DNA from: Owenia fusiformis
Taxonomy: Eukaryota > Annelida > Polychaeta > Sabellida > Oweniidae
DNA: 64,000 nucleotides
Assembly: GCA_903813345.2 (NCBI GenBank)
Contig: CAIIXF020000010.1
Span: 2,597,169 to 2,661,168 of the forward strand
Direction of reading: 5' to 3'
A program made the translations under genes and the position numbers. Of this stretch, positions 42,706 to 64,000 are shown piece after piece; position 1 is the stretch's first letter, and each line of letters begins with the position of its first letter. A model generated the notes under the pieces. The model was not told the DNA's origin. It worked only from the letters and a program-made list of their open reading frames with translations, and searched no databases.

Positions 42706-42822
42706 TCCATTAACAGAAATTTTATCATTAACAGAAATGTTATTGATAACAAAGATGTTATTATTAACAGAAATGTTATTATTAACCTAAATGTTATTCT
42801 TAACAAAAATGTTAATACAATG
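42706..42822. repeat. AACAGAAATGTTATTATT 18-bp minisatellite
   Basis: Six to seven degenerate units; also present at 55632-55748 in the duplicate copy with small differences. The flanking AGAGATTTCGC and GCGAAATCTCTC words are inverted. Confidence 0.8.
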
Positions 42823-44591: not shown

Positions 44592-47500
44592 TCAATCAGT
44601 TGAAATGTCCAAGTATAAGTCTGAGTTTGCTCTATATAACAACATGGAAAATACAGATTCTAATTCTTGACCCTCATCAATCAGTTCAAATGCTCTTGCA
44701 TAATCAGGATGAAAATTCCCTCCATATTGATAAGCCAGGTCAAAAATTTCTTTGAAATAAGACACGGCTTCAGTGTACAACCCCATGCTTTGGTGTATAA
44801 TACCTATCACTTTCAATGAATTGGTAATATCTGGGTGAGGTTCATTGTTGTGGATCTCTCTGTACATTTCTAGACTTTCATGGTGGTATTCCAGTGCTTT
44901 AGTCTTATCTCCCATGTCATCATACACATTGCCTATGTTGTAAAGTGATCCAGCAACATCTGGATGGGGACTGTCCTGGTAGATTAGTCTTCTCATTGTA
45001 AGACTCTCTTGATGATACTGCAGTGCTTTAGTCTTATCTCCCATGTCATCATACACACTGCCCATGTTGTTAAGTGATGCAGCAACATCTGAATGAGGAC
45101 TGTCCTGGTGGATGAGTCTTTGCATTATAAGACTCTCTCGGTGATACTCCAGTGCTTTAGTCTTATCTCCCATGTCATCATACACACAGCCTATGTTGTT
45201 AAGTGATCTAGCAACATCTGAATGGGGACTGTCCTTGTGGACGAGTCTTCTCATTGTAAGACTCTCTTGGTGATACTCCAGTGCTTTAGTCTTATCCCCC
45301 ATGGCATTATACACATTGCCTATGTTGTAAAGTGATGAAGCAACATCTGAATGGGGACTGTCCTGGTGGATGAGTCTCTCCATTGTAAGACTCTCTTGAT
45401 GATGCTGTAGTGCTTTAGTCTTATCTCCCATGGCATTGTACACATTGCCTATGTTGTTAAGTGATCTAGCAACATCTGGATGGGGACTGTCCTGGTGGAT
45501 GAGTCTTTTCATTGTAAGACTCTCTTGATAATACTCTAGTGCTTTAGTCTTATCTCCCATGTCATTATACACAATGCCTATGTTGTTAAGTGATGAAGCA
45601 ACATCTGAATGGGGACTGTCCTGGTGGATGAGTCTTGTCATTGTAAGACTCTCTTGATGATACTCCAGTGCTTTAGTCTTATCTCCCATGTCATCATACA
45701 CATTGCCTATGTTGTAAAGTGATGAAGCAACATCTGAATGGGGACTGTCCTGATGGATTAGTCTTTTCATTGTAAGACTGTTTTGATGATATTTCAGTGC
45801 TTTAGTCTTATCCCCCATGGCATTATACACATTGCCTATGTTGTAAAGTGATGCAGCAACATCTAAATGGGGACTGTCCTGGTGGATTAGTCTGCTTATT
45901 GTAAGACTTTCATGGTGATACTCCAGTGCTTTAGTCTTATCTCCCATGGCATTATACACATTGCCTATGTTGTAAAGTGATGCAGCAACATCTAAATGGG
46001 GACTGTCCTGGTGGATTAGTCTGCTTATTGTAAGACTCTCTTGGTGATACTGCAGTGCTTTAGTCTTATCTCCCATGGCATTATACACATTGCCTATGTT
46101 GTTAAGTGATGAAGCAACATCTGGATGGGGACTGTCCTGGTGGATGAGTCTTTTCATTGTAAGACTCTCTTGATGATACTCCAGTGCTTTAGTCTTATCT
46201 CCCATGTCATTATACACATTGCCTATGTTGTTAAGTGATGCAGATACTCCTATTTTATCATTGATTTTTTCACTTGTATTCAGACTATCATTATGATGTT
46301 TCAATGCTTGTGAATATTTGCCTTGTACCTGGTATAGTATACCTATTGCAGTATGTGTATTCGCTAATTTCATTTTATTTCCTTCTATTTCAAGATTTTG
46401 TAGTGTTTTTAATTCCATCTGATAAGCTTGTAATGCCCTCTCAAAAAAGAAGACATCCTTGTATAATTCTGCTTTCACTTTATTGCTCCCTTCAAAATAT
46501 CTGTTGCTATAAGCCCAGTAGCCACTCACATTCAAGTTTGATTTGAGGAATTCATACCATGGTAAAAATGTGTTAAAAAAACGTAGTATGGCTGTATAAC
46601 TTCTAATTGGTATTATTTCTATTTTTTCATTCTCTACCAATTCACTTTTTAAGAAAGATATGAACTCTTTCTGTTGCTTATATGTACCGTAGACCATATG
46701 TCTAAGATTTATGACAGAGATCACCATCAGTTGTAGATCCTTCATTGCTCTTTCAGTTAGGATACCCTTCTGTTGCAGTTCCTCTAACACGTCTAGAGGA
46801 GGACATGCTGTACATCCATGCATAAGCTTTAGAATGTTGATAGTGATTGTAGCAAATCTGTAGACATCATGCTTTGTATGCATTTTCCTTATGAATGATT
46901 TTGATGACAGAGGATTTTTTTCGTATTTTGCTAAGTCTTCTTTCAGTGTCCTCATTGCACGTTCTCTACCCATTGTGATGTCTGGATTGGTTTCAGATGG
47001 TGATGCCAATATGGCATGTACTTTCTCATTGTATTCCTTCCAAAGAGCATAGTCTCCAGTGATAAGAGATGATGTCATGAGGACGTCACTAAGGTGGTAA
47101 CCTTCCTTAAGGGATTCATTTGTAAACTGAAACTTACTCATTTCATCAACAGTCATGATAAGTTCAAGTTTGAGAGGTTTATCAGCATCTTCTCTAGATT
47201 TCCGACCAATAGCTGTCTTGCTTGCATATGGCTGTGTTCCATCAAAAGACACTCCCCTGGTGGTTGCTATGTCAAAGAAGTCATTGTTTTTCATGTCAGA
47301 TGGTAAGTGGTTATTGTAATCTGTAAGAACTGGTATGTCCAAACAGTTAAGCAAGGTCTCACCTAGGTTAAGTACCTTCAAATGCATATAATATGCTATC
47401 ATAGGCAATTGCTTTTTGACTTGGTCGTCAGGTTTGCCCAAGGGATCATACAGTATTGCCCATTCAATGTCGGAATATGCAGTGACCTCATTACGTGATA

Positions 47501-50500
47501 TTGAACCAAGCGCTATAAATGCAAACTTACAATCAGGCTTTCCTAAGACAGAAAAACAGTCATTGATGATAGACTTATAAAAATCTAAAAGTTGTTGCGT
47601 AATTCCATTATAGAACTCTTTACTGTGCTCTATTGTGTTACCCTCATCTTTATCTTTCATCTCTGTGGTCACATCATCAAATATCATGTCTTTCTTGATG
47701 ATGTCATTTACTGTTGTGTTAGAGTACTCTCGTATCTTTTCTAGCGCTTTTTTGTACTTCTGTGTTGAGACTTTTGTTGATAATTCACAATGTTGTGCGA
47801 CACAGCATTTTTGTACAAAGTTGTTTTCTATAAGTTGAAGCTGTTGGTCAATGTTTTCTAAGTCTTGACTCAGAGCTGTGTCAGTTTTTTCAGCGTCAGC
47901 GTCATTCAACATCTCAATTCGGCATTTAGCAGCATTGTACAATGCACAAGACCAAACATAGTGTTCATACCAGATATCAGAGGTCTCTGCTGATTTGATA
48001 TACTCTTGTCCAAGTTGACACATGAAGTCTGCCTGTTCTTTTAATTCAGTGCTCTGATTACATTCATTTATTTTGCGACCAAGTTCATACATTTCTTTGG
48101 TCACTTCTGAAAAATGAAAATGTGTAGACATAATGTGCCTGTTTCAATATATTTCTTAAAAATGTTCCTTGGTGTTATGGTCTGGGATTGTGATATTGGT
48201 ACAGGGTGTTAAAAAAACGCAACAAAAACGCAAGATATCGCTATATCTTGGAAAATACTAATCCAATTGTGTTCATCTTTTCAGGAAAGAAAGAAGGGAC
48301 TGTGTGTGTATAGCTCCTGCTGTTAGTTGGTTGTAAAACATGATGCCTCAAAAGACATTAGTATTGGAAACATACGCAAAACTCAGTCAGAGGTGACTGC
48401 CACAGCAATAAAAACTGAATAACTTTCTAACCATAGTGTTTTTGGCACTTCAGATTTGGCACAAATTATCCTCATTCAATGTGTGGTGAATTTGTGGAGT
48501 TTTATCAAAATCACTCCTGGGACTTTACAGTCATGGTCAAAATGCCTTCTTAAGTCTGCCTGAACCAGGGCATTTGACTGCGTTTTGATAGCATTTCGAC
48601 CATGACTGTAAAGTCCCTGGAGTGATTCTGATTTCACTCTAGATATTTACCGTACATTGAATGAAGATGATTTGTGCCAAATTTGAAGAGCCAAAACACT
48701 ATGGTTAGGAAGTTATTTAGTTTTTTTGTGGTTGCAGTCACCCCTGACTGGGTTTTTCGTATTCTTCTAGTTATGTCCCCACCATATAGTGTGGGGCCAT
48801 ATTGTCGGCCTAGGCGCGTCCGTCTGTCTGTCCGTCTGTCTGTCCGTCTGTCTGTCCGTACGTCCGGCAGTTTTCTCCAAAACCGCTACAGATATCACCT
48901 TCAAATTTTCAGGGATAACTTATGAGTGCATACAGATGTGGATGAAAAAAAATTAACTCGATACCTACTTCCTGTCGGCCATTTTGAAGTCAAATGCTAA
49001 AATCCTTGTCTGCAAACTTTAAGAAAAACGGCTTCACAGTTGCTTTTAAAACTTTAACATCTTGTTCAGCTCACTTCATTCTAGATCTGATTAGGTTTTG
49101 GACCTGTTAGCTCAGTCATGTCAGCCATTTTGAATGTTTTAAGAAAAATTAGCGCACAATAATACTTTGTATCATATTGAATGGTCAATTTTGAATTTTT
49201 CAGTTTTCATACTTTAACTTTTTAGTAGCTTTATAAATAATTTCAGGTGTACTTTGTTGTAAAAGCCTATGTTATTGTTAACAGTAGTTATATGTGATAA
49301 TTTTGTAAAACGATTTCAGCAAAAACTCATAATCACTTTTTTATTGTCGGCCATTTTGGATTTTTCCGTCCTAAAATCTTGTCTGTAAGTCTTGTCTATG
49401 CGTTTTCAGGTGAACCGTTTGGTAGATCAATTTCAAATTTTCAGGGATGATTCTTAGTATGAGAATCTAGATCTGATTAGTTTTTTGGCATTCTGGATAA
49501 ATGTCAAGGCAGCAATTTTGGATTTTCCGTCTTAAAATCTTGCCCGTAAAGTCTTGTCTACGCGTTTTTAGGTGAACCGTTTGGTAGATCAATTTCAAAT
49601 TTTCAGGGATGATTCTTAGTATGAAAATCTGGAACTGATTAGTTTTTGGGCATTCTGGGTAAAAGTCAAGGCAGCCATTTTGGATTTTCTGTCCTCAAAT
49701 CTTGTCTGTAAAGTCTTGTTTACATGTTTTCTGGTTAACTGTGTGACTAATTTTTTGGCATTCTTGGTAAATTTTAAGGTGGCCATTTTGAATTCTCCGT
49801 CCTCAAATTGTGTCGGTAAAGTCTTGTCTACTCATTTTTAGGATAACCATTTGACGGGATCATCCATAGGTGGGGACATATTGTACACATTTGTGTTCTT
49901 GTACAAATATCTTTTGAGCAGGTGTGCAAGGCATCATGTTTTACAACTAACCATTTACAGGAGCTGATACATACACAGTCTCTCCTTTCTCTCCTGAATA
50001 AATGAACATAATTGAATTAATATTTCCAAGATATAGCAATTTCTTTGGGTTGTATTTTTTAACACCCTGTACTTGGATGGTGGGGGAGGGGGTATTAGAC
50101 ATGGTTTCTTTTCAGTTAGATTATGGGATAGTTGGGGTTTGTTTTCCCTATGACTGGTATACTGCTCAATATGATAAAGGACAGGGACTCTTTTTGCATA
50201 AAGGTGATTTAAAGAAGAAGGCTGTAAGTTACTTAACTTATCTTCCCTTTAAAAGAAAGATAAATTATGCTGCAATTTTTATACCTGCCTAAAACCAAAG
50301 ACTTTTCAACAATATAATATATTTGTACTTGATTTTGAAGTGTCTAGGTTAGGCCAAGTTGATACTTATCTGAAGAATTTCAGATAATAGTGTTTTGATT
50401 TTGACTTTATCTTTTAACCTAGTCAGATGTCATGTATCATATTTCATGTGAATGATATCTTAGAGTGCGTGGCACCTCCCAGGATATTGATTTTTTTCTT

Positions 50501-52450
50501 TCTTAGCGGCAGGGCCAAAATATTGATATCCATATATGGAGATGAAAGTAATTTCATTTGGACAACAACTCCCAACACTCCCCTCAAGAGGAAAGCTTGG
50601 AACACTTAAAAAGTCATTGATTTTCAGTGACTGTCAAATGACTTGAAACCCATGATATTACATTAATTAACACATTACCTTTATATTTCATATACAGATG
50701 ATATACTATAGCAATTCATTCTGCTTGATAGTTCATTTTGGTTAGGGGGGGGGGCACCTCATAAGATCAATGCAGGAATGTTAAATTCTCTTTGTCAGTT
50801 AAGGGTAGAAAGTTGATGAGCCTTGATAAATTGCTAAACATGTATATGTTAAGTATTAAATATATTCAGACTTATGAAAACAATATGTAATAACAATAGT
50901 TACCAAAATTAATATAGTTATCATTAAAGATTGTGTATCTAAAAAAGCATGCAAAATCAATTCTTATATGGATATGTACTTGCTAAACATAACAATGTCA
51001 ACAGGATCAACTTTGGTCTCAGTATTTATAATTCTATGTTTTCACCAGCCATTACACATGGTTGTGGGGTATGGTGTGTTAATAAGACAACTACAAAAAT
51101 ACTAAATTCCCTCCAATATAATGCTGGAAGGGCAATTTTGAATCTAAAGTGTAAACCGGCTACATGTGCTATTTTAGCAGAATTAGGCTGGGAATCATTA
51201 ACTACAAGCATTGAAAACAAACAGATCGATTATTTTAGCTACCTAGTAAAAAATGATAGGAATGATCTTTTAAACATTGTTTTTCAAAGTATGTTAGAAC
51301 ACCATAGGTTTAATAAATATTTGTGTTGGCCATATATGAGAAACATCCACTCAATTATGAAAGATAGACGGCTGGATGATGTTATGTTCAGACCTTACAC
51401 TTCCTGGATGAAGACATATAAAGCCATCACAAATAGCCAAATGAAAACTGATATATTTAAATCAATAAATGTAAAATCCTCACTAAACATTAAAAATGTT
51501 TAAGATGAATTGGAATCTTGAATGTCATATGCACATTTCAAACGATTTCAGACTTAATGTTTTAAGGTTTCGAGCTAGGACAGGATGTTTCATGGTTGGT
51601 GCAGATTTGAAAAGATGGGGCCAAAGTGATGGATTGTGCCAATTTTGTAATTCAGGGATTGATGATCTTTCCCACCACTTACTGTTATGTCCATATATCA
51701 CCTCCGATCATTCTGTCTGATTTTCTAACTTAATAAGAGTGCACTTGAAGGCAATAATGAACATGTCTTTAACCATTTCATGTCTTTTAACGTTCAGAGC
51801 AAATTGCATTGGCTACTGGGCAATGATATACATAGTGTTTATGGGCACAAGAAGTTTTAGTAGATAGAAGTATCAAACAATTTTAATCTAATGCATTTGT
51901 TTCACCCTAATCTCAATGATACCACAAAATGAATATGTTTTGTATTTTATGTACATTTTTGTAAGAGCACCCAGTATTGGTGTGCCACCGTTTTAAAGGT
52001 GTTATAAATAAATATCAATGAGGAAAGACAATAAAGATTAACTATTTTAAATTAGGTTGCACAAGGAAAATAATTCTGCATGAACTTTTGAGATGCGTCC
52101 TAATATGATTGCAATCACATTTTCCCTGTTACTTGCAGTAATATAATTAGAATGCCTTTTCCTTCTTTCACCCTTTATGTTTTCTTATTTTATGAACAGA
52201 AGATATAATTGATTAAATAAGGAATCAAAAATGATAAATCATAGTCACCTGTTTTCTCTGATGGCTGATCAGGACCCGGATTTGCCTCTATTCCTCCTCG
52301 GATCAGAAGTGTCTCTATGATCTGTATGATCTGTGTCAAAGACTGTTGCATTGGAGATTTGACAGTTCGTTTTAAACGGAATGTCTCATTTTTGTGGCCT
52401 CCACCAAATGTCCCAATGGCCACTCTCCACTGTTGCACAGAATTTCCCAT
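44592..52450 (-). CDS. DUF294-type nucleotidyltransferase with 11 TPR units and 2A-like leader exon
   Basis: Two exons: 52249-52450 (67 codons plus 1 nt; Kozak AACATGG; donor ACAG/GTGACT) and 44592-48106 (acceptor TTTTCATTTTTCAG). They join in phase to make GAA and give about 1238 residues. Leader: Arg/Lys-rich, then hydrophobic, then GGIEANPGP (residues 52-60), a 2A-like motif. Second exon: a helical region, then a nucleotidyltransferase core with GS-x10-DIE (GSISRNEVTAYSDIE). A later LKLEL strand may supply the third acidic residue. Next is a helical domain with LSDVLMTSSLITGD and VLEELQQKGILTERAM, typical of the C-terminal partner domain of DUF294/GlnD-like enzymes. Then 11 TPR units of 43 residues and a divergent cap. 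NT-fold enzymes transfer nucleotides; the substrate here is unknown. Without the leader exon, an ATG at 48131 would start a 1179-residue form. Other 5' exons are possible. Confidence 0.8.
44800..46240 (-). repeat. TPR-coding array of 129-bp units, copy 1 (11 units)
   Basis: Eleven 43-codon units, each starting MGDKTKAL, with a diverged unit at each end. Units differ mainly at TPR positions 2, 5, 9, 12, 13 and 22 and at a few loop residues. Confidence 0.95.
48202..50069. mobile_element. Palindromic MITE with TA flanks, split by a nested repeat
   Basis: Ends CAGGGTGTTAAAAAAACGCA and complement are flanked by TA at 48200 and 50070. The left part is one long imperfect palindrome centred near 48567 (ACTTTACAGTCATGGTC, TTTGGCACAAATTATC, CTCAGTCAGAGGTGACTG and complements). 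The right arm resumes only after about 49885, because another repeat sits at 48772-49885. Lies in the intron of the NTase-TPR gene. Confidence 0.85.
48772..49885. mobile_element. Nested repeat with GTCCCCACC / GGTGGGGAC ends
   Basis: Begins TATGTCCCCACCATATAGTG, contains a (GTCCGTCTGTCT)n run and three ~150-bp internal repeats around AGGTGAACCGTTTGGTAGAT and GGCCATTTTGGATTTT, and ends in ATAGGTGGGGACATATTGTA. No transposase frame. Interrupts the MITE at 48202-50069, so it is younger. Confidence 0.75.
50070..50944. other. No supported gene
   Basis: Intronic to the NTase-TPR gene under my model. Open stretches at 50002-50292 and 50427-50609 have no recognisable domain. Confidence 0.4.
50945..52018 (+). 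pseudogene. 3' end of a non-LTR retrotransposon (LINE), frameshifted
   Basis: Plus-strand remnant of the region after the reverse transcriptase. The first stretch (50949-51503) has AITHGCGVWCVN and a leucine-rich helical part. After a frame change at about 51496, the second has VLRFRARTGCF and a Cys/His finger CQFCNSGIDDLSHHLLLCP, typical of the C-terminal finger of LINE proteins. A 3' UTR with GTTATAAATAAATATC ends near 52018. The RT domain itself is absent: a 5'-truncated, dead copy. Confidence 0.85.
52019..52248. other. Intron of the NTase-TPR gene, 5' portion
   Basis: Sequence between the LINE tail and the donor of the leader exon. Reads on in frame with the leader exon for 18 codons to a stop at about 52190, so an unspliced transcript would make an 86-residue peptide. 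Confidence 0.5.
52271..52297 (-). other. 2A-like motif GGIEANPGP in the leader exon
   Basis: Matches the 2A core D-x-E-x-N-P-G-P except that the first Asp is Gly. A hydrophobic helix (IIQIIETLLI) precedes it as in active 2A peptides. If active, ribosomes would release a 59-residue leader and restart at Pro60. The Asp-to-Gly change may weaken or abolish skipping. N-terminal 2A-like sequences are known from sea urchin NLR genes and from LINEs of marine invertebrates; a LINE origin of this exon is therefore possible. Confidence 0.65.
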
Positions 52451-54670: not shown

Positions 54671-57046
54671 GTAAGTGAACCGTTTTGAAACATATGTGCA
54701 CAATTAACACTCATTAGTTGACTTAGGTATTTTCGGATTGTTTGAGGGGCAAGTGTATTGCAGTCGATGTGTTCAATTTGTATCATATCACCTGTTAAAA
54801 AGTGAAACATCATTTTCAATATTTGAAATAAAACATATCTAAGATCTCAGAATTTTGTTCTCAAATATTGTCATCTGCAAAGTTTAGCCACTTTACCCCA
54901 GTTTCTTTCATTCATTGGGATTGAGGTTTTGTTTGAAATGTCTGTTATGCTGCAAAAATCTCTGTTGAATTGGATTGCTGTAAAATCAAAAATTTTAACT
55001 CATTGCAGCCAAATGTATAAGAATCGATTTATATCAAAATTACCTGCAGCTGTCTTCCAAGTTTCATTGCTAATTGGTTCAGAGTTTACATGCACTGGAT
55101 TTGGACTTCTGAACATGGTGTGTACTCAGTAAAATCCCCCAACCCCTATTAGTTGATATAATGATATAATCCACATGATGTAAAAACATATAAATGAAGC
55201 ATGTCACATAATCATTTGATAGTTTGAAACAGAATATTTTTGTTGTTGATATTTTGAATGGTGCTTTATTTTTCAATGCATGCAAGAATGAAGAAATTAT
55301 CCTATGACAATTTGTCTATTCTAGCAATTTTGAGAAATGATTTCTAGAAGTGCTGGCACTATGACAATTAAACTAAATGACACTGTTTAAAATCTGGTAA
55401 AGATAACGTTCAAAGTTTAAAACTTTGTTAGATATAAAACATGTGAAACTTGAGATTGCTTCATCATTCCAATGAATTCATTTGTATTTTTGTTTTACTT
55501 ACAAAAATGTTTTTGTTAGAGAGATTTCGCTTGAACTTGAACAAAATCATAATTTCTTGCGTAGCACTATCCATTTATACGGATCCAAAAAACATAAGCT
55601 GTGCTTTCACTTATGAGCGAAATCTCTCTATTAACAGAAATTTTATCATTAACAGAAATGTTATTGATAACAAAGATGTTATTATTAACAGAACTGTTAT
55701 TATTAACCTAAATGTTATTCTTAACAAAAATTTTAATACAATGAACATTCCATTACAAAATATAATTCATCTTTTATAATGTTTTCCCCATTTGGGAACA
55801 ATATTTACAAAGCCATGATACTCAGGTAATGGTTTCCCATTGATCAACTTCGCTTTGAAGGTTAATATAAGGCCTTCATAACTAATAATATAATAATATT
55901 AATACTAATTGATAGTTTGATGCCTTTGGAATTCTAATATAATTTTCTAAATACATGTAATGTACAATAATGCTGGAGCTTTTTTCACATGATGTTATGT
56001 TTAAAACTTTTAATTTATTGAAAATAAGATGAACATACAGCCATATACATCTGAAACCTAAACAATTAAACATAATTTTGAATTTGGTTGCTCCATTTAA
56101 ACGTATAACTAATTCATATTATTAACTTATTAAAAGGAAATAAACAGTGATAATTTCAAACTTTCACTTGATTCGAACCATTGGTCCATTATGCTAATCT
56201 TTTAATACCGCAATAGAATTTTCTTGTTTTCATAGTGGACTATAATATACAGTGAAGCCTGTTTATTGGAACACCTCCAGAAGTGGCACACTTTTTAGAG
56301 TCCCAAGACCAACTGATTTAGTGTTAAGTGAACCTCTTTAGTGAAACACCTTCCAAATTGAACACTTTAGAGGCACCAAAGGTGTTCTGCTTAGGAAGGT
56401 TTTACTGAACATGATTTATAGTACTATAGTATACCTTTCAATTGGATGTCTTGATATACCTTCCTTACATTTTAGTTTAAAACTATGTATATATTAGATC
56501 ACTATATTTACTATGTACAGTATTGTTTTAAGTTCAGTTTGGTACATGCTGTTTATACCACAGTCATTATGAGCAGGGTGTGTCATAAGGTTTAAAGACC
56601 TATTGATCAAAATTTGATTATAGACCAGTTGCCTTGTCATTTTCCTGTATGTGATTAAACAGTCAGCTATTCCAGATTGCCTACGTTCCTGCAGGCCTTT
56701 GAAAGCTTATGTCACACCATGCTGGTTATTAATTATCAAATCAAAACAAAGAGCAATGCATGACATTGACATGGCAAGTAATTTGAGACAGTCATATCTA
56801 ATTAGAAAATAAGTCCCAACATTTTGAAAATATGTGGATATGTGGACATATACATAATGTCCCATAGTCCATGGATTTTACAGTCGAATTTTTGGTTATC
56901 CATGGAACACAGTGTTATTACTCATTATTATCAATTTTCAGTTTATACATTTTTCTCAAATAAATCAGGTCTTGTTTGTTATATTTCATTTTATAATTTG
57001 ACTGTCTTCTTGTCTCATTGGTCTCTCATATATTACATGTCTCAGG

Positions 57047-57815: not shown

Positions 57816-60800
57816 TTACTCTGGACACTTATCGATCAGTTCTAGTGCTCTCAGATAATCAGGGTGTGAATCCCCTCCATATTGATAAGCCAGGTCAAGA
57901 CTTTCATTGAAATAAGACACAGCTTCAGTGTACAACCCCATGCTTTGGTGTATAATGCTTATCTCTTGCAATGAATCAGTAATATCTGGGTGAGGTTCAT
58001 TGTTGTGGATCTCTCTGTACATTTCTAGACTTTCATGGTGATACTCCAGTGCCTTAGTCCAATCTCCCATGTCATTATAAACACACCCTATGTTGTAAAG
58101 TGATTCAGCAACATCTGAATGAGGACTGTCCTGGTGGATTAGTCTGCTCATTGTAAGACTCTCTTGGTGATACTCCAGTGCTTTAGTCTTATCTCCCATG
58201 GCATTATACAACCAGCCTATGTTGTAAAGTGATCTAGCAACATCTGAATGGGGACTGTCCTGGTGGATTAGTCTTCTCATTGTAAGACTCTCTTGATGAT
58301 ACTCCAGTGCTTTAGTCTTATCTCCCATGTCATTATACACACAGCCTATGTTGTAAAGTGATCTAGCAACATCTGGATGGGGACTGTCCTGGTGGATGAG
58401 TCTTCTCATTGTAAGACTCTCTTGATGATACTTTAGTGCTTTAGTCTTATCTCCCATGTCATAATAAACACACCCTATGTTGTAAAGTGATCTAGCAACA
58501 TCTGAATGGGGTTTGTCCTGGTGGATGAGTCTTCTCATTGTAAGACTCTCTTGATGATACTTCAGTGCTTTAGTCTTATCTCCCATGTCATAATAAACAC
58601 ACCCTATGTTGTAAAGTGATCTAGCAACATCTGAATGGGGACTGTCCTGGTGGATGAGTCTTCCCATTGTAAGACTGTCTTGGTGATACTGCAGTGCTTT
58701 AGTCTTATCTCCCATGTCATAATAAACACACCCTATGTTGTAAAGTGATCTAGCAACATCTGAATGGGGACTGTCCTGGTGGATGAGTCTTCTCATTGTA
58801 AGACTCTCTTGATGATACTTCAGTGCTTTAGTCTTATCTCCCATGTCATAATAAACACACCCTATGTTGTAAAGTGATCTAGCAACATCTGAATGGGGAC
58901 TGTCCTGGTGGATGAGTCTTCCCATTGTAAGACTCTCTTGGTGATACTCCAGTGCTTTAGTCTTATCTCCCATGTCATAATACACATTGCCTATGTTGTA
59001 AAGTGATGCAGCAACATCTGAATGGGGACTGTCCTGGTGGATGAGTCTTCCCATTGTAAGACTCTCTTGGTGATACTTCAGTGCTTTAGTCTTATCTCCC
59101 ATGTCATAATAAACACACCCTATGTTGTTCAGTGATGCAGCAACATCTGAATGGGGACTGTCCTGGTGGATGAGTCTGCTCATTGTAAGACTCTCTTGAT
59201 AATACTCCAGTGCTTTAGTCTTATCCCCCATGTCATTATACACACTGCCTATGTTGTTAAGTGATCTAGCAACATCTTGATGGGGACTGTCCTGTTGGAT
59301 TAGTCTTCTCATTGTAAGACTCTCTTGGTGATACTCAAGTGCTTTAGTCTTATCTCCCATGTCATTATACACATTGCCTATGTTGTAAAGTGATCTAGCA
59401 ACATCTGAATGGGGACTGTCCTGGTGGATGAGTCTTCTCATTGTAAGACTCTCTTGGTGATACTCAAGTGCTTTAGTCTTATCTCCCATGTTATTATACA
59501 CATTGCCTATGTTGTTCAGTGATGCAGCAACATCTGAATGGGGACTGTCCTGGTGGATGAGTCTTTTCATTGTAAGACTCTCTTGATGATGCTGCAGTGC
59601 TTTAGTCTTATCTCCCATGTCATCATACACACACCCTATGTTGTTAAGTGATGAAGCAACATCTGGATGGGGACTGTCCTGGTGGATTAGTCTTCTAATT
59701 GTAAGACTGTCTTGGTGATACTCCAGTGCTTTAGTCTTATCTCCCATGTCATCATACACACACCCTATGTTGTTAAGTGATGAAGCAACATCTGAATGGG
59801 GACTGTCCTGGTGGATGAGTCTTCTCATTGTAAGACTCTCTTGGTGATATTGCAGTGCTTTAGTCTTATCTCCCATTGCATTATACACATTGCCTATGTT
59901 GTTAAGTGATCCAGCAACATCTGGATGGGGACTGTCCTGGTGGATGAGTCTTTTCATTGTAAGACTCTCTTGATGATGCTGCAGTGCTTTAGTCTTATCT
60001 CCCATGTCATCATACACATTGCCTATGTTGTTAAGTGATGAAGCAACATCTGAATGGGGACTGTCCTGGTGGATGAGTCTTCCCATTGTAAGACTCTCTT
60101 GGTGATATTGCAGTGCTTTAGTCTTATCTCCCATGTCATCATACACACACCCTATGTTAAGTGATGAAGCAACATCTGAATGGGGACTGTCCTGGTGGAT
60201 GAGTCTTCTCATTGTAAGACTCTCTTGGTGATATTGCAGTGCTTTAGTCTTATCTCCCATTGCATTATACACACTGCCTATGTTGTTAAGTGATCCAGCA
60301 TCATCTGGACGGGGACTGTCCTGGTGGATGAGTCTTCCCATTGTAAGACTCTCTTGGTGATATTGCAGTGCTTTAGTCTTATCTCCCATGTCATCATACA
60401 CACACCCTATGTTAAGTGATGAAGCAACATCTGAATGGGGACTGTCCTGGTGGATGAGTCTTCTCATTGTAAGACTCTCTTGGTGATATTGCAGTGCTTT
60501 AGTCTTATCTCCCATTGCATTATACACACTGCCTATGTTGTTAAGTGATGCAGCAATATCTGAATGGGGACTGTCCTGGTGGATGAGTCTTCTCATTTTA
60601 AGACTCTCTTGGTGATACTGCAGTGCTTTAGTCTTATCTCCCATGGTATTATACACACTGCCTATGTTGTTAAGTGATGCAGCAATATCTGAATGGGGAC
60701 TGTCCTGGTGGATGAGTCTTCTCATTGTAAGACTCTCTTGGTGATACTGCAGTGCTTTAGTCTTATCTCCCATGGCATTATACACACTGCCTATGTTGTA

Positions 60801-63800
60801 AAGTGATCTAGCAACATCTGAATGGGGACTGTCCTGGTGGATGAGTCTTTTCATTGTAAGACTCTCTTGGTGATACTGCAGTGCTTTAGTCTTATCTCCC
60901 ATGTCATAATAAACACACCCTATGTTGTTAAGTGATGAAGCAACATCTGAATGGGGACTGTCCTGGTGGATGAGTCTTTTCATTGTAAGACTCTCTTGGT
61001 GATATTGCAGTGCTTTAGTCTTATCTCCCATTGCATTATACACATTGCCTATGTTGTTAAGTGATGCAGCAATATCTGAATGGGGACTGTCCTGGTGGAT
61101 GAGTCTTTTCATTGTAAGACTCTCTTGATGATACTGCAGTGCTTTAGTCTTATCTCCCATGTCATAATAAACACACCCTATGTTGTTAAGTGATGAAGCA
61201 ACATCTGAATGGGGACTGTCCTGGTGGATGAGTCTTTTCATTGTAAGACTCTCTTGATGATGCTGCAGTGCTTTAGTCTTATCTCCCATGTCATCATACA
61301 CACACCCTATGTTGTTAAGTGATGAAGCAACATCTGAATGGGGACTGTCCTGGTGGATGAGTCTTCCCATTGTAAGACTCTCTTGGTGATATTGCAGTGC
61401 TTTAGTCTTATCTCCCATTGCATTATACACACTGCCTATGTTGTTAAGTGATGAAGCAACATCTGAATGGGGACTGTCCTGGTGGATGAGTCTTTTCATT
61501 GTAAGACTCTCTTGATGATGCTGCAGTGCTTTAGTCTTATTTCCCATGTCATCATACACATTGCCTATGTTGTTAAGTGATCCAGCAACATCTGAATGGG
61601 GACTGTCCTGGTGGATGAGTCTTTTCATTGTAAGACTCTCTTGGTGATATTGCAGTGCTTTAGTCTTATCTCCCATTGCATTATACACATTGCCTATGTT
61701 GTTAAGTGATGAAGCAACATCTGAATGGGGACTGTCCTGGTGGATGAGTCTTCTCATTGTAAGACTCTCTTGGTGATACTCAAGTGCTTTAGTCTTATCT
61801 CCCATGGCATTATACACACTGCCTATGTTATTAAGTGATCCAGCAACATCTGAATGGGGACTGTCCTGGTGGATGAGTCTTCTCATTGTAAGACTCTCTT
61901 GGTGATATTGCAGTGCTTTAGTCTTATCTCCCATGTCATCATACACACACCCTATGTTGTTAAGTGATGAAGCAACATCTGAATGGGGACTGTCCTGGTG
62001 GATGAGTCTTCTTATTGTAAGACTCTCTTGGTGATATTGCAGTGCTTTAGTCTTATCTCCCATTGCATTATACACACTGCCTATGTTGTTAAGTGATGCA
62101 GCAATATCTGAATGGGGACTGTCCTGGTGGATGAGTCTTTTCATTGTAAGACTCTCTTGATGATACTGCAGTGCTTTAGTCTTATCTCCCATGGCATTAT
62201 ACACACTGCCTATGTTGTTAAGTGATGAAGCAACATCTGAATGGGGACTGTCCTGGTGGATGAGTCTTCCCATTGTAAGACTCTCTTGGTGATACTGCAG
62301 TGCTTTAGTCTTATCTCCCATGTCATAATAAACACACCCTATGTTGTTGAGTGATGAAGCAACATCTGAATGGGGACTGTCCTGGTGGATTAGTCTGCTC
62401 ATTGTAAGACTCTCTTGGTGATACTCAAGTGCTTTAGTCTTATCTCCCATGGCATTATACACACTGCCTATGTTGTTAAGTGATCCAGCAACATCTGAAT
62501 GGGGACTGTCCTGGTGGATGAGTCTTCTCATTGTAAGACTCTCTTGGTGATATTGCAGTGCTTTAGTCTTATCTCCCATGTCATTATACACACTACCTAT
62601 GTTGTTAAGTGATGCAGCAATATCTGAATGGGGACTGTCCTGGTGGATGAGTCTTCTCATTGTAAGACTCTCTTGATGATACTTCAGTGCTTTAGTCTTA
62701 TCTCCCATGTCATAATACACATTGCCTATGTTGTAAAGTGATCTAGCAACAGCTGAATGGGGACTGTCCTGGTGGATGAGTCTTCTCATTTTAAGACTCT
62801 CTTGGTGATACTGCAGTGCTTTAGTCTTATCTCCCATGTCATCATACACACTGCCTATGTTGTTAAGTGATGCAGCAATATTTGAATGGGGACTGTCCTG
62901 GTGGATGAGTCTTCTCATTGTAAGACTCTCTTGATGATACTCAAGTGCTTTAGTCTTATCTCCCATTGCATTATACACACTGCCTATGTTGTAAAGTGAT
63001 CTAGCAACATCTGAATGGGGACTGTCCTGGTGGATGAGTCTTTTCATTGTAAGACTCTCTTGCAGATGCTGCAGTGCTTTAGTCTTATCTCCCATGTCAT
63101 AATACACATTGCCTATGTTGTTAAGTGATGCAGCAATATCTGAATGGGGACTGTCCTGGTGGATGAGTCTTCTCATTGTAAGACTCTCTTGATGATACTT
63201 CAGTGCTTTAGTCTTATCTCCCATGTCATAATACACATTGCCTATGTTGTAAAGTGATCTAGCAACATCTGAATGGGGACTGTCCTGGTGGATGAGTCTT
63301 TTCATTGTAAGACTCTCTTGAAGATGCTGCAGTGCTTTAGTCTTATCTCCCATGTCATAATACACATTGCCTATGTTGTTAAGTGATGAAGCAACATCTG
63401 AATGGGGACTGTCCTGGTGGATGAGTCTTTTCATTGTAAGACTCTCTTGGTGATATTGCAGTGCTTTAGTCTTATCTCCCATTGCATTATACACACTGCC
63501 TATGTTGTTAAGTGATGAAGCAACATCTGAATGGGGACTGTCCTGGTGGATGAGTCTTCCGATTGTAAGACTCTCTTGGTGATATTGCAGTGCTTTAGTC
63601 TTATCTCCCATTGCATTATACACACTGCCTATGTTGTTAAGTGATGAAGCAACATCTGAATGGGGACTGTCCTGGTGGATGAGTCTTCCCATTGTAAGAC
63701 TCTCTTGGTGATATTGCAGTGCTTTAGTCTTATCTCCCATTGCATTATACACACTGCCAATGTTGTTAAGTGATGAAGCAACATCTGAATGGGGACTGTC

Positions 63801-63998
63801 CTGGTGGATGAGTCTTCTCATTGTAAGACTCTTTTGATGATACTCCAGTGCTTTAGTCTTATCTCCCATGGCATTATACACACTGCCTATGTTGTTAAGT
63901 GATGCAGCAATATCTGAATGGGGACTGTCCTGGTGGATGAGTCTTCTCATTGTAAGACTCTCTTGGTGATACTGCAGTGCTTTAGTCTTATCTCCCAT
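57816..63998 (-). CDS. Second TPR paralogue: 47 near-identical TPR units, 5' end outside window
   Basis: One uninterrupted 2060-codon reading frame with TAA at 57816-57818, open to the right edge. It is paralogous to the TPR half of the gene at 44592: same 43-residue units (MGDKTKAL, QESLTM, RLIHQDSPHSD, SLNNIG), same cap (MGLYTEAVSYF, YQYGG). I count 47 units plus the cap; two units near 60150 and 60406 lack one Asn codon and mark a two-unit duplication. The C-terminus stops at CPE, about 20 residues shorter than copy 1. By analogy the N-terminal nucleotidyltransferase should lie to the right of the window, but this is not seen. TPR solenoids bind peptides or proteins; 47 units would form several superhelical turns. 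Collapsed or expanded unit number from assembly error is possible. Confidence 0.9.
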   Translation of the reverse strand: MGDKTKALQYHQESLTMRRLIHQDSPHSDIAASLNNIGSVYNAMGDKTKALEYHQKSLTMRRLIHQDSPHSDVASSLNNIGSVYNAMGDKTKALQYHQESLTMGRLIHQDSPHSDVASSLNNIGSVYNAMGDKTKALQYHQESLTIGRLIHQDSPHSDVASSLNNIGSVYNAMGDKTKALQYHQESLTMKRLIHQDSPHSDVASSLNNIGNVYYDMGDKTKALQHLQESLTMKRLIHQDSPHSDVARSLYNIGNVYYDMGDKTKALKYHQESLTMRRLIHQDSPHSDIAASLNNIGNVYYDMGDKTKALQHLQESLTMKRLIHQDSPHSDVARSLYNIGSVYNAMGDKTKALEYHQESLTMRRLIHQDSPHSNIAASLNNIGSVYDDMGDKTKALQYHQESLKMRRLIHQDSPHSAVARSLYNIGNVYYDMGDKTKALKYHQESLTMRRLIHQDSPHSDIAASLNNIGSVYNDMGDKTKALQYHQESLTMRRLIHQDSPHSDVAGSLNNIGSVYNAMGDKTKALEYHQESLTMSRLIHQDSPHSDVASSLNNIGCVYYDMGDKTKALQYHQESLTMGRLIHQDSPHSDVASSLNNIGSVYNAMGDKTKALQYHQESLTMKRLIHQDSPHSDIAASLNNIGSVYNAMGDKTKALQYHQESLTIRRLIHQDSPHSDVASSLNNIGCVYDDMGDKTKALQYHQESLTMRRLIHQDSPHSDVAGSLNNIGSVYNAMGDKTKALEYHQESLTMRRLIHQDSPHSDVASSLNNIGNVYNAMGDKTKALQYHQESLTMKRLIHQDSPHSDVAGSLNNIGNVYDDMGNKTKALQHHQESLTMKRLIHQDSPHSDVASSLNNIGSVYNAMGDKTKALQYHQESLTMGRLIHQDSPHSDVASSLNNIGCVYDDMGDKTKALQHHQESLTMKRLIHQDSPHSDVASSLNNIGCVYYDMGDKTKALQYHQESLTMKRLIHQDSPHSDIAASLNNIGNVYNAMGDKTKALQYHQESLTMKRLIHQDSPHSDVASSLNNIGCVYYDMGDKTKALQYHQESLTMKRLIHQDSPHSDVARSLYNIGSVYNAMGDKTKALQYHQESLTMRRLIHQDSPHSDIAASLNNIGSVYNTMGDKTKALQYHQESLKMRRLIHQDSPHSDIAASLNNIGSVYNAMGDKTKALQYHQESLTMRRLIHQDSPHSDVASSLNIGCVYDDMGDKTKALQYHQESLTMGRLIHQDSPRPDDAGSLNNIGSVYNAMGDKTKALQYHQESLTMRRLIHQDSPHSDVASSLNIGCVYDDMGDKTKALQYHQESLTMGRLIHQDSPHSDVASSLNNIGNVYDDMGDKTKALQHHQESLTMKRLIHQDSPHPDVAGSLNNIGNVYNAMGDKTKALQYHQESLTMRRLIHQDSPHSDVASSLNNIGCVYDDMGDKTKALEYHQDSLTIRRLIHQDSPHPDVASSLNNIGCVYDDMGDKTKALQHHQESLTMKRLIHQDSPHSDVAASLNNIGNVYNNMGDKTKALEYHQESLTMRRLIHQDSPHSDVARSLYNIGNVYNDMGDKTKALEYHQESLTMRRLIQQDSPHQDVARSLNNIGSVYNDMGDKTKALEYYQESLTMSRLIHQDSPHSDVAASLNNIGCVYYDMGDKTKALKYHQESLTMGRLIHQDSPHSDVAASLYNIGNVYYDMGDKTKALEYHQESLTMGRLIHQDSPHSDVARSLYNIGCVYYDMGDKTKALKYHQESLTMRRLIHQDSPHSDVARSLYNIGCVYYDMGDKTKALQYHQDSLTMGRLIHQDSPHSDVARSLYNIGCVYYDMGDKTKALKYHQESLTMRRLIHQDKPHSDVARSLYNIGCVYYDMGDKTKALKYHQESLTMRRLIHQDSPHPDVARSLYNIGCVYNDMGDKTKALEYHQESLTMRRLIHQDSPHSDVARSLYNIGWLYNAMGDKTKALEYHQESLTMSRLIHQDSPHSDVAESLYNIGCVYNDMGDWTKALEYHHESLEMYREIHNNEPHPDITDSLQEISIIHQSMGLYTEAVSYFNESLDLAYQYGGDSHPDYLRALELIDKCPE
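58030..63998 (-). repeat. 129-bp TPR-coding satellite, at least 47 units
   Basis: Units repeat every 129 bp (126 bp in two cases) with very high identity. Both synonymous changes (CAC/CAT, TAC/TAT) and replacements at a handful of codons distinguish them. Blocks of two units are themselves repeated (60121-60380 and 60376-60635). Confidence 0.95.
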
Positions 63999-64000
63999 GG

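Follow-up and report, generated by a model that had tools for sequence, protein, structure and literature searches.

A window of 64,000 nucleotides from the Owenia fusiformis genome (G000:C10:2597169-2661168 of a 498-Mb genome, the one genome from which all evidence comes) was analysed. The window carries two related genes on the complementary strand, each encoding an N-terminal region with a predicted nucleotidyltransferase domain followed by an array of tetratricopeptide repeats (TPRs), and the units of such arrays were found to differ, with an excess of replacement over silent change, mainly at positions corresponding to those where kinesin light chain 1 (KLC1) contacts peptides. The open frame at 57816-63998 (-) reported in the initial annotation could be confirmed and is built from 43-amino-acid units. 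According to the open frame and the unit lattice, it belongs to the 3' part of the main exon of the large gene (57816-64000, -), which holds about 47 of the 78 TPR units and a C-terminal cap. The whole frame of 4014 amino acids passes the window end and reaches about G000:C10:2667028; it consisted of an N-terminal region of about 650 amino acids and 78 TPR lattice units, two of which are 42 amino acids long. This layout recurs in the second gene (44592-48143, -), there with 12 units. Based on the frame, Pfam matches and the acceptor position, the main exon of this small paralogue was placed at 44592-48106 (-), comprising the nucleotidyltransferase domain, linker helices and the 12 TPR units; the array of 43-amino-acid units, computed from the unit lattice, occupies 44697-46244 (-). 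The modelled N-terminal domain region (DUF294, predicted GlnE/DrrA-like fold, motif GSISRNEVTAYSDIE) spans 46224-48131 (-), as judged by profile, alignment and structure model. Tandem Repeats Finder gave a period of 129 for both window arrays. An assembly artefact is unlikely, since there are no ambiguous bases in the window or in L001, one frame stays intact along 12 kb, and further loci show the pattern too; the number of units and the duplication of 25 units described below are those of the assembly sequence, not of raw reads.

The variable positions were determined from 50 non-redundant units of the large gene, after removal of one copy of the 25-unit block and of the capping units. Amino-acid entropy was highest at unit positions 2 (1.88 bits), 31 (1.73), 9 (1.69), 12 (1.44) and 13 (1.31), followed by 22 (1.24), 43 (0.86), 5 (0.80), 23 (0.58) and 41 (0.54), and all remaining positions had at most 0.38 bits. 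The initial annotation had named positions 2, 5, 9, 12, 13, 22 and a site next to the end of helix B as almost the only variable ones; these are seven of the top ten by entropy, but positions 43, 23 and 41 had been overlooked. The residues quoted there were correct, namely Asn or Tyr at position 5, Ser, Asn or Cys with one Trp at position 9, Gln, Glu or Lys at position 22, and Arg, Lys, Gly or Ser at the helix-B site.

The same variation had been interpreted by means of the 34-residue TPR canon, which is not quite the right template because the units are of the 42/43-residue kinesin light chain (KLC) type. By profile, the arrays belong to the KLC/LGN-type TPRs, and the small paralogue matched TPR_12 with 397 bits (cut-off 30.1) and TPR_10 with 314 bits (27.5). 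Across 34-residue TPRs, the most variable positions are reported as 2, 5, 9, 12, 13, 33 and 34, and peptide binding by HOP as using positions 2, 5, 6, 9, 12 and 13 (Magliery and Regan, PMC1261162). The contacts described between KLC1 and the JIP1 or TorsinA peptide are N259, R266, N301, N302, V305, K309, Y313, R327, K340, N343, N344, L347, L348, N351 and N386 (PMC6214655). Alignment to 6fuz (chain index plus 200, units starting at 97 and 139, the two residues before N301 placed via the 42-residue spacing) mapped these contacts to unit positions 2, 5, 6, 9, 10, 12, 13, 17 and 31. The groove reading was supported on this template, as position 31, which is the claimed helix-B-end site, and positions 2, 5, 9, 12 and 13 all coincide with KLC1 peptide contacts; six of the top eight entropy sites are thus found among the nine contact positions (hypergeometric p 0.00033). 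Some of these contacts have reported functional weight. Arg312Glu in KLC2 abolishes the binding of tryptophan-acidic cargo (PMC6224480), this residue being KLC1 R327 by an offset inferred from S328 = N343, and KLC1 N343 (unit position 5) is one of the two residues that determine KLC1/KLC2 specificity (PMC6214655).

In the structure model of the small-paralogue array, helix A extends over unit positions 41-14 and helix B over 17-34/35. Comparison of this model with the LGN-peptide complex 4wne gave a template modelling (TM) score of 0.88 by target length and a root-mean-square deviation (rmsd) of 2.5, which was the best by rmsd in Foldseek; by E-value, ranks 1-8 were taken by SPINDLY, designed TPRs and O-GlcNAc transferase. 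The groove assignment is based on the KLC1 contact list and not on a surface calculation from the array model, and residues 1-632 of a full-length single-sequence model, with a predicted local distance difference test (pLDDT) below 50, were excluded from use. Of 457 units, 361 retain Asn6, the residue that binds the peptide backbone, which is no more than suggestive of peptide binding in the concave groove.

Homogenisation of the units with shuffling of variants, as proposed in the initial annotation, was supported by two lines of evidence. A 25-unit (3225-base) tandem block of the large gene was duplicated at 0.23% divergence, units 3-29 and 28-54 (0-based) being identical except for 8 differences in 3483 compared bases; from the unit offsets, part of the second copy lies at 60942-64000 (-, approximate ends), with the first copy outside the window. 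One pair of these differences alters positions 12 and 13 jointly, to codons that are common elsewhere in the array, and looks like a short conversion tract. Further, the association between variable bases decreased from 0.40 at 0-6 bases to 0.18 at 61-100 bases, with 0.15 after shuffling. Linkage therefore comes near background within one unit, which indicates exchange tracts shorter than a unit. When units were typed at seven sites, 35 types were counted among the 50 units of the large gene, and none was shared with 9 units of the small paralogue.

These results bear on the possibility that the arrays have a fixed endogenous job in which, like LGN or KLC, they serve as scaffolds or cargo adaptors for many different host partners, each bound by its own patch of units, with no arms race. 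The nearest solved structures in sequence or fold, besides the designed and O-GlcNAc-transferase-type TPRs, are those of LGN/Pins and KLC, which are host-peptide scaffolds, and would suit such a job. However, the family has up to about 100 loci, its arrays range from 6 to 78 lattice units in the genes cut, the 25-unit duplication is recent, and the two window genes have no seven-site type in common; these features point to rapid change over fixed partners, and we regard the endogenous job as unlikely.

The pattern was examined across the genome using the first 223 N-terminal residues, which gave 103 genome matches at E <= 0.001, with at least three pairs that look like split loci. A total of 33 genes were read, and the 25 with arrays of at least six 43-amino-acid units after trimming formed the selection sample. 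Two arrays were excluded as too short (G12 and G7, with 4 and 3 units after trimming), five loci had no clear 43-amino-acid lattice (L015, L027, L028, L030 and L032), and L029 had a 36-amino-acid lattice. Trimming dropped the first and the last two lattice units of each array (only the first in G435), and units with stops and some 41-amino-acid units were also dropped in the first 13 genes. The sets 2/5/9/12/13 and the nine KLC1 contacts are literature sets, whereas 2/5/9/12/13/31 was picked after viewing the data; the exposed non-groove control consisted of 14 positions that were hand-chosen and not structure-derived. Mean pairwise identity within the arrays was 0.62-0.91 and reached 0.85 or more in 7 of the 25 (two-decimal values).

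The replacement-over-silent test at positions 2, 5, 9, 12 and 13 was positive, with replacement diversity (piN) above all-site silent diversity (piS) in 24 of 25 arrays and a median piN/piS of 2.46. At the nine KLC1 contact positions the ratio exceeded 1 in 22 arrays (median 1.94), compared to only 2 arrays (median 0.62) at the exposed non-groove positions. The median ratios per site were 4.47 at position 31, 3.99 at 2, 3.05 at 9, 2.40 at 12, 2.31 at 13, 1.43 at 42, 1.21 at 5 and 0.45 at 22. Position 22, also claimed as variable in the initial annotation, is so in the large gene but is not raised family-wide. The post hoc six-site set gave ratios above 1 in 24 of 25 arrays (median 2.39), and the lower 5% bootstrap bound stayed above 1 in 19. 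Among the top eight entropy sites of each array, position 2 recurred in 22 of 25, position 12 in 21, position 9 in 20, position 31 in 19, position 13 in 16, position 5 in 10 and position 42 in 9. Only 2 of 20,000 random five-site sets reached the median observed at 2/5/9/12/13. With the silent sites of the same codons as denominator, the least favourable weighting tried, with transitions unweighted, still left this set above 1 in 20 of 25 arrays (pooled 1.46). Minimum-step counts in 13 arrays gave 186.5 replacement to 36.5 silent changes in the groove and 293.5 to 177.5 at the other sites except 22 and 31 (Fisher p 8e-9 on rounded counts). The N-terminal regions had a median dN/dS (replacement to silent substitution rates) of 0.28 (115 pairs with dS <0.8), and purifying selection acts on the N-terminal enzyme domain.

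Relaxed constraint alone could produce part of this picture if the arrays were a structural TPR rod whose unconstrained groove residues accumulate variants that unequal crossing-over then spreads. Some results lean that way. An Fst-like comparison of between- and within-array differentiation in the first 11 arrays was not significant for groove versus silent sites (Mann-Whitney p 0.48), although the silent sites were more differentiated by the ratio of means (0.56 vs 0.30); the minimum-step excess in the groove was only marginal against neutrality (187:37, p 0.044); and piS was somewhat higher (1.17 times) at the variable codons. The Fst-like index is bounded by within-array diversity and was therefore not used as evidence. 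On the other hand, the groove ratio lies above 1 in nearly all arrays while the median of the non-groove control lies below it, and this counts against relaxed constraint because relaxation cannot lift piN over piS. When piS was taken from the same codons as the denominator, the ratio at 2/5/9/12/13 still exceeded 1 in 22 of 25 arrays (pooled 1.82), and the contact sites hold residues of diverse chemistry. We consider an explanation by relaxation only to be quite improbable and, the weak tests apart, the claim of selection at the groove sites to be firm for this one genome.

Two family members stood out in the course of this comparison. L029 (G000:C2:22629200-22633500) is a divergent member with a different homogenised repeat of period 36 amino acids (identity 0.62 at that lag), which is apparently a separately amplified TPR array. 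L002 (G000:C2:27190000-27199999), from which 57 lattice units were cut, has two in-frame stops and a weaker groove ratio of 1.55, and is perhaps a decaying gene.

Profile analysis of the N-terminal regions revealed PF03445 (DUF294) above its 21-bit cut-off in six of the eight members scanned (small paralogue 23.9 bits, L001 22.7, L020 42.5, L022 26.4, L029 32.3 and L027 33.0) and just below it in the other two (L030 20.8 and L018 20.3); by this profile, the family belongs to DUF294. The N-terminal model built from 32 family sequences (pLDDT 86.7, predicted TM score 0.86) was closest to DrrA (Z 26.2, rmsd 4.0 over 323 residues), followed by the two GlnE halves (Z 23.2 and 22.0), and the next row, at Z 16.2, was a TPR match. 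Foldseek also placed DrrA and GlnE entries first (E 3e-7 to 3e-5). A motif GS-x-x-R-x-E-x-T-x-x-S-D-x-E was nearly invariant in 33 aligned rows, with G, R, E, T, S and D invariant, Ser following G in 97% of rows and Glu as the second acid in 97%. GlnE and DrrA share a nucleotidyltransferase signature of the G-S-x(9)-S-D-x-[DE] type. Judging from the modelled fold and this motif, the N-terminal domain is probably a protein nucleotidyltransferase. The initial annotation had noticed neither this domain nor the StopGo leader exon described below. Identity with the cGAS-like receptors (cGLRs) was also considered, whose motif is given as h[QT]GS (PMC9980059), and was rejected because GS is preceded in the 33 rows by L, H or F and never by Q or T (L027 has C, followed by GD). 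No Pfam match to NACHT/NB-ARC was obtained at E 0.1 in the main exon of the small paralogue and seven other N-terminal regions. Likewise, no F-box was matched at E 0.1 in eight main-exon N-terminal regions, nor at E 10 in two leader exons.

The start of the genes was placed upstream of the main exon. An in-frame ATG before the conserved block was tried as the gene start and rejected, because a TTTCAG acceptor stands there in 18 of 27 sequences, directly preceding the conserved EVTKEMYELG block, and an upstream exon is available in matching phase. The remaining sequences were L019 with TTTTAG, seven without the anchor, and L007 with a misplaced anchor. Five paralogues have one coding stretch in common in their upstream flanks, MGNS..QWR.AIGTF... 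followed by G(V/I)ExNPGP and a phase-1 GT donor compatible with the acceptor. For the small paralogue, conservation predicts the first coding exon at 52249-52450 (-), with the MGNS... leader and GIEANPGP near its end; the predicted leader intron (-) has its GT donor at 52248 in phase 1, is 4142 bases long, and has its acceptor before 48106. Leader exons with an MGNSxxQWRxAIGTF-like start were likewise seen at C10:2669620 and at loci L043-L062, and their MGNS start is a possible N-myristoylation site. Among 20 further leader exons, one of which (L050) is the C9 stretch already in the earlier set, 19 carried G[VI]ExNPGP; L055 had GIEMDPGP and L051 lacked the ATG. The two genes on C10 and two on C6 carried the motif as well, and a phase-1 GT[AG] followed within 60 bases in all 18 scorable leader rows. 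The motif departs from the classical D(V/I)ExNPGP, as Gly replaces Asp before [VI]E in all 24 leader exons read, and in duck hepatitis A virus 1 the form GxExNPGP is reported to be active in skipping (PMC6249498).

The reverse-translated octapeptide GxExNPGP occurred at 53 genome sites, compared to one match for the backwards control. Using all 53 sites and 78 of the 103 nucleotidyltransferase matches (the others being weak or split pieces), 40 sites were located within 15 kb upstream and on the same strand of a nucleotidyltransferase match, where 0.06 would be expected if evenly spread. In a separate pairing of first exons with nucleotidyltransferase matches, 31 of the 61 exon matches and 48 of the 103 nucleotidyltransferase matches were included. 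Seen from the genes, the leader motif lies within 15 kb of 41 of the 66 strongest nucleotidyltransferase matches. The leader would be spliced to the main exon and translated, and ribosomes may skip at its StopGo-type motif. Octapeptide sites away from the family were noted at G000:C11:27982685 and 27982727 (42 bases apart), C11:35430909, C11:27966453, C5:35108577 and C9:12160189 (identical letters), and C1:42610962; these perhaps belong to transposons or to another gene family.

Bacterial relatives of the enzyme domain could be found in five Chlamydiae records (L033-L037), one gammaproteobacterial record and one weak Corynebacterium match. L033 carries the enzyme together with 42-amino-acid KLC-type TPRs in one frame, its repeats being not homogenised (best period identity 0.17), and the best enzyme segments of L033 and L034 are 30-32% identical to the animal family. 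The layout of L033 suggests a gene transfer between Chlamydiae and animals, in either direction. It is conceivable that the genes are mobile or come from a symbiont, having been acquired from Chlamydiae-like bacteria and expanded with little immune meaning. Besides the relatives in Parachlamydiaceae and other Chlamydiae, this view could draw on the NEX2 family of Neochlamydia, described as having 50 members, the majority of which combine an F-box with DUF294 and TPRs (PMC4209131), and on the single long exon that forms the animal main exon. Most strong loci, however, are on chromosome-sized contigs, and the upstream leader motif at 41 of the 66 strongest matches, with donor and acceptor phases matching where examined, and the deep radiation of the family also argue against it. 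Branches in the unrooted tree are long, its bacterial split is weakly supported (64/86, 63% of bootstrap trees), and such an origin would be compatible with the selection result. As an account of the family, it is given a low probability.

Taken together, the arrays are best read as parts of fast-evolving, TPR-guided protein nucleotidyltransferases that probably recognise non-self or pathogen proteins, a reading to which we assign a probability of roughly 0.62. The arrays would be peptide-binding TPR superhelices like those of KLC and LGN, attached to the DUF294 (GlnE/DrrA-fold) nucleotidyltransferases that make up a large animal gene family. Retention of Asn6 and the core residues would hold the superhelix and grip the peptide backbone, and the groove-lining, side-chain-reading positions 2, 5, 9, 12, 13 and 31 would be driven to diverge between units. 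Short-tract exchange and unequal crossing-over would copy and shuffle the variants, alter the number of units and wipe out the remaining differences. In this way, each gene could obtain its own quickly changeable peptide-recognition surface, which would deliver a target protein to the enzyme, and the enzyme would probably attach a nucleotide to it. The StopGo/2A leader exon may allow the N-terminus to be split off or dual-targeted. Peptide binding and a recognition role of the arrays are suggested by selection and structure combined, nucleotidylation by the enzyme family is presumed from its predicted fold, and the likeliest role would be the recognition of fast-changing or non-self proteins in innate immunity or a similar conflict. 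A bolder version is also conceivable but is held with considerable doubt, in which about 60 to 100 StopGo-led, TPR-guided nucleotidyltransferases form a germline-evolving recognition system without somatic recombination, catch pathogen or non-self proteins by their sequence through homogenised arrays of shuffled modules, inactivate them by nucleotidylation, and use the array order as a programmable peptide code.

Several observations, in addition to the Fst-like and minimum-step results given above, weigh against the recognition reading. The lower 5% bootstrap bound for the six-site set was at or below 1 in 6 of 25 arrays. G495 was weak, with 3 of its top eight sites being contacts and a lower bootstrap bound of 0.68, as were L023 (ratio 0.95), L024 (1.07) and L025 (1.15), and array G2 carries two in-frame stops. 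The KLC1 contacts 6, 10 and 17 are not hypervariable in this family, and position 42 is raised (site median 1.43) although it lies outside the KLC1 contact set. A comparison of recombining units by their pairwise diversity does not amount to a formal codon-model test, and the silent sites are perhaps not entirely neutral. The leader motif accompanies only the fraction of the strongest nucleotidyltransferase matches stated above and none of the 12 weaker ones, and the enzyme could be inactive or act on another substrate.

Other features of the window and of the family loci were recorded. An 18/54-base repeat ATTAACAGAAATGTTATT occurs downstream of both window genes (42709-42814 and 55629-55735), and parts of the upstream flanks of the two genes are 88-89% alike; the shared downstream repeat is consistent with a whole-locus duplication of the two genes. 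An open frame of 186 amino acids at 50943-51503 (+) was recognised by eye as what we take to be a fragment of a LINE-type (long interspersed nuclear element) reverse transcriptase. At G000:C7, a 945-amino-acid open frame of the tandem repeat WNGLTSVRNKLCVHALLYNTGVNRYEGNHTLIAKEH (L012:2845-5679, +) adjoins a short family member and is probably a satellite without stops.

No animal DUF294-TPR family was found in the open-access literature searched, among the matches listed, and the same holds for the combination of the enzyme, a homogenised and groove-diverse array, and a StopGo leader. An evolutionary regime known from the WD, ANK and TPR repeats of fungal NOD-like receptors (NLRs) would operate in the genome of an animal, with another enzyme as platform and with up to 78 units, and its replication in 25 arrays of one genome provides usable statistics even without population data. 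The arrays would offer a testable natural code of TPR peptide recognition. The family would also point to protein-modifying enzymes of the GlnE/DrrA fold in animals, beside Fic and SelO, which a review of metazoan AMPylation discusses as eukaryotic AMPylases (PMC8097203). Furthermore, this single gene family adjoins 40 of the 53 exact StopGo-type sites of a genome, though StopGo has been called rare in cellular genes (PMC12846837).

Among known systems, the evolutionary regime appears to work like that of the fungal NLR repeats with high internal conservation (HIC), which also show near-identical TPR, ANK or WD units, concerted evolution and a large family (PMC4986451, PMC2873952; Chevanne et al. 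2010 for the latter). In the fungal TPRs, positively selected sites are reported on the concave face, modelled on KLC2 (3EDT) (Dyrka et al. 2014, PMC4986451), and a replacement excess at the predicted interaction sites is likewise present in 24 of the 25 arrays studied here, whereas the published HIC identity cut-off of 85% is reached by 7 of the 25 only. The share of HIC repeats in metazoans is given as 0.8%, and the most-conserved TPR example of that study has 21 units compared to 78 here (PMC4986451). The fungal NLRs carry NACHT/NB-ARC nucleotide-binding and oligomerization domains, in the place of which the present family has a GlnE/DrrA-fold nucleotidyltransferase, in an animal host and with a StopGo leader. 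As no NACHT/NB-ARC match was obtained in the eight N-terminal regions scanned, the family is not a member of the fungal-NLR HIC family. The domain order is shared with Neochlamydia NEX2, as described in PMC4209131, and with L033, in which DUF294 is followed by C-terminal TPRs, and both families show lineage-specific expansion; NEX2 is bacterial with an F-box in the majority of members, whereas no F-box was matched in the members scanned here, and the 42-amino-acid units of L033 are not homogenised, in contrast to the 43-amino-acid units of the present arrays. The protein-AMPylating enzymes GlnE and DrrA/SidM resemble the N-terminal domain in predicted fold (Z 22-26) and in the nucleotidyltransferase signature but differ in their 8-13% structural-alignment identity, in the second acid, which is Glu in nearly all family rows, and in the fused long TPR array. 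The sea-urchin NLRs, in the account of Roulston et al. (2016, PMC4981915), similarly combine an expanded recognition-type repeat family with a 2A-like motif near the N-terminus that serves as skip and signal sequence; their motif is D(V/I)ExNPGP, whereas the DUF294-TPR genes have G(V/I)ExNPGP on a separate exon after the MGNSxxQWRxAIGTF-like start.

Finally, the arrays share with KLC and LGN/Pins the TPR superhelix. KLC resembles them further in its 42-residue units with paired Asn5/Asn6, and its contacts fall at the positions that are variable here. The TPR units of KLC and LGN/Pins are few, diverged and conserved between species. Neither KLC nor LGN is known to have homogenised arrays or an attached enzyme.

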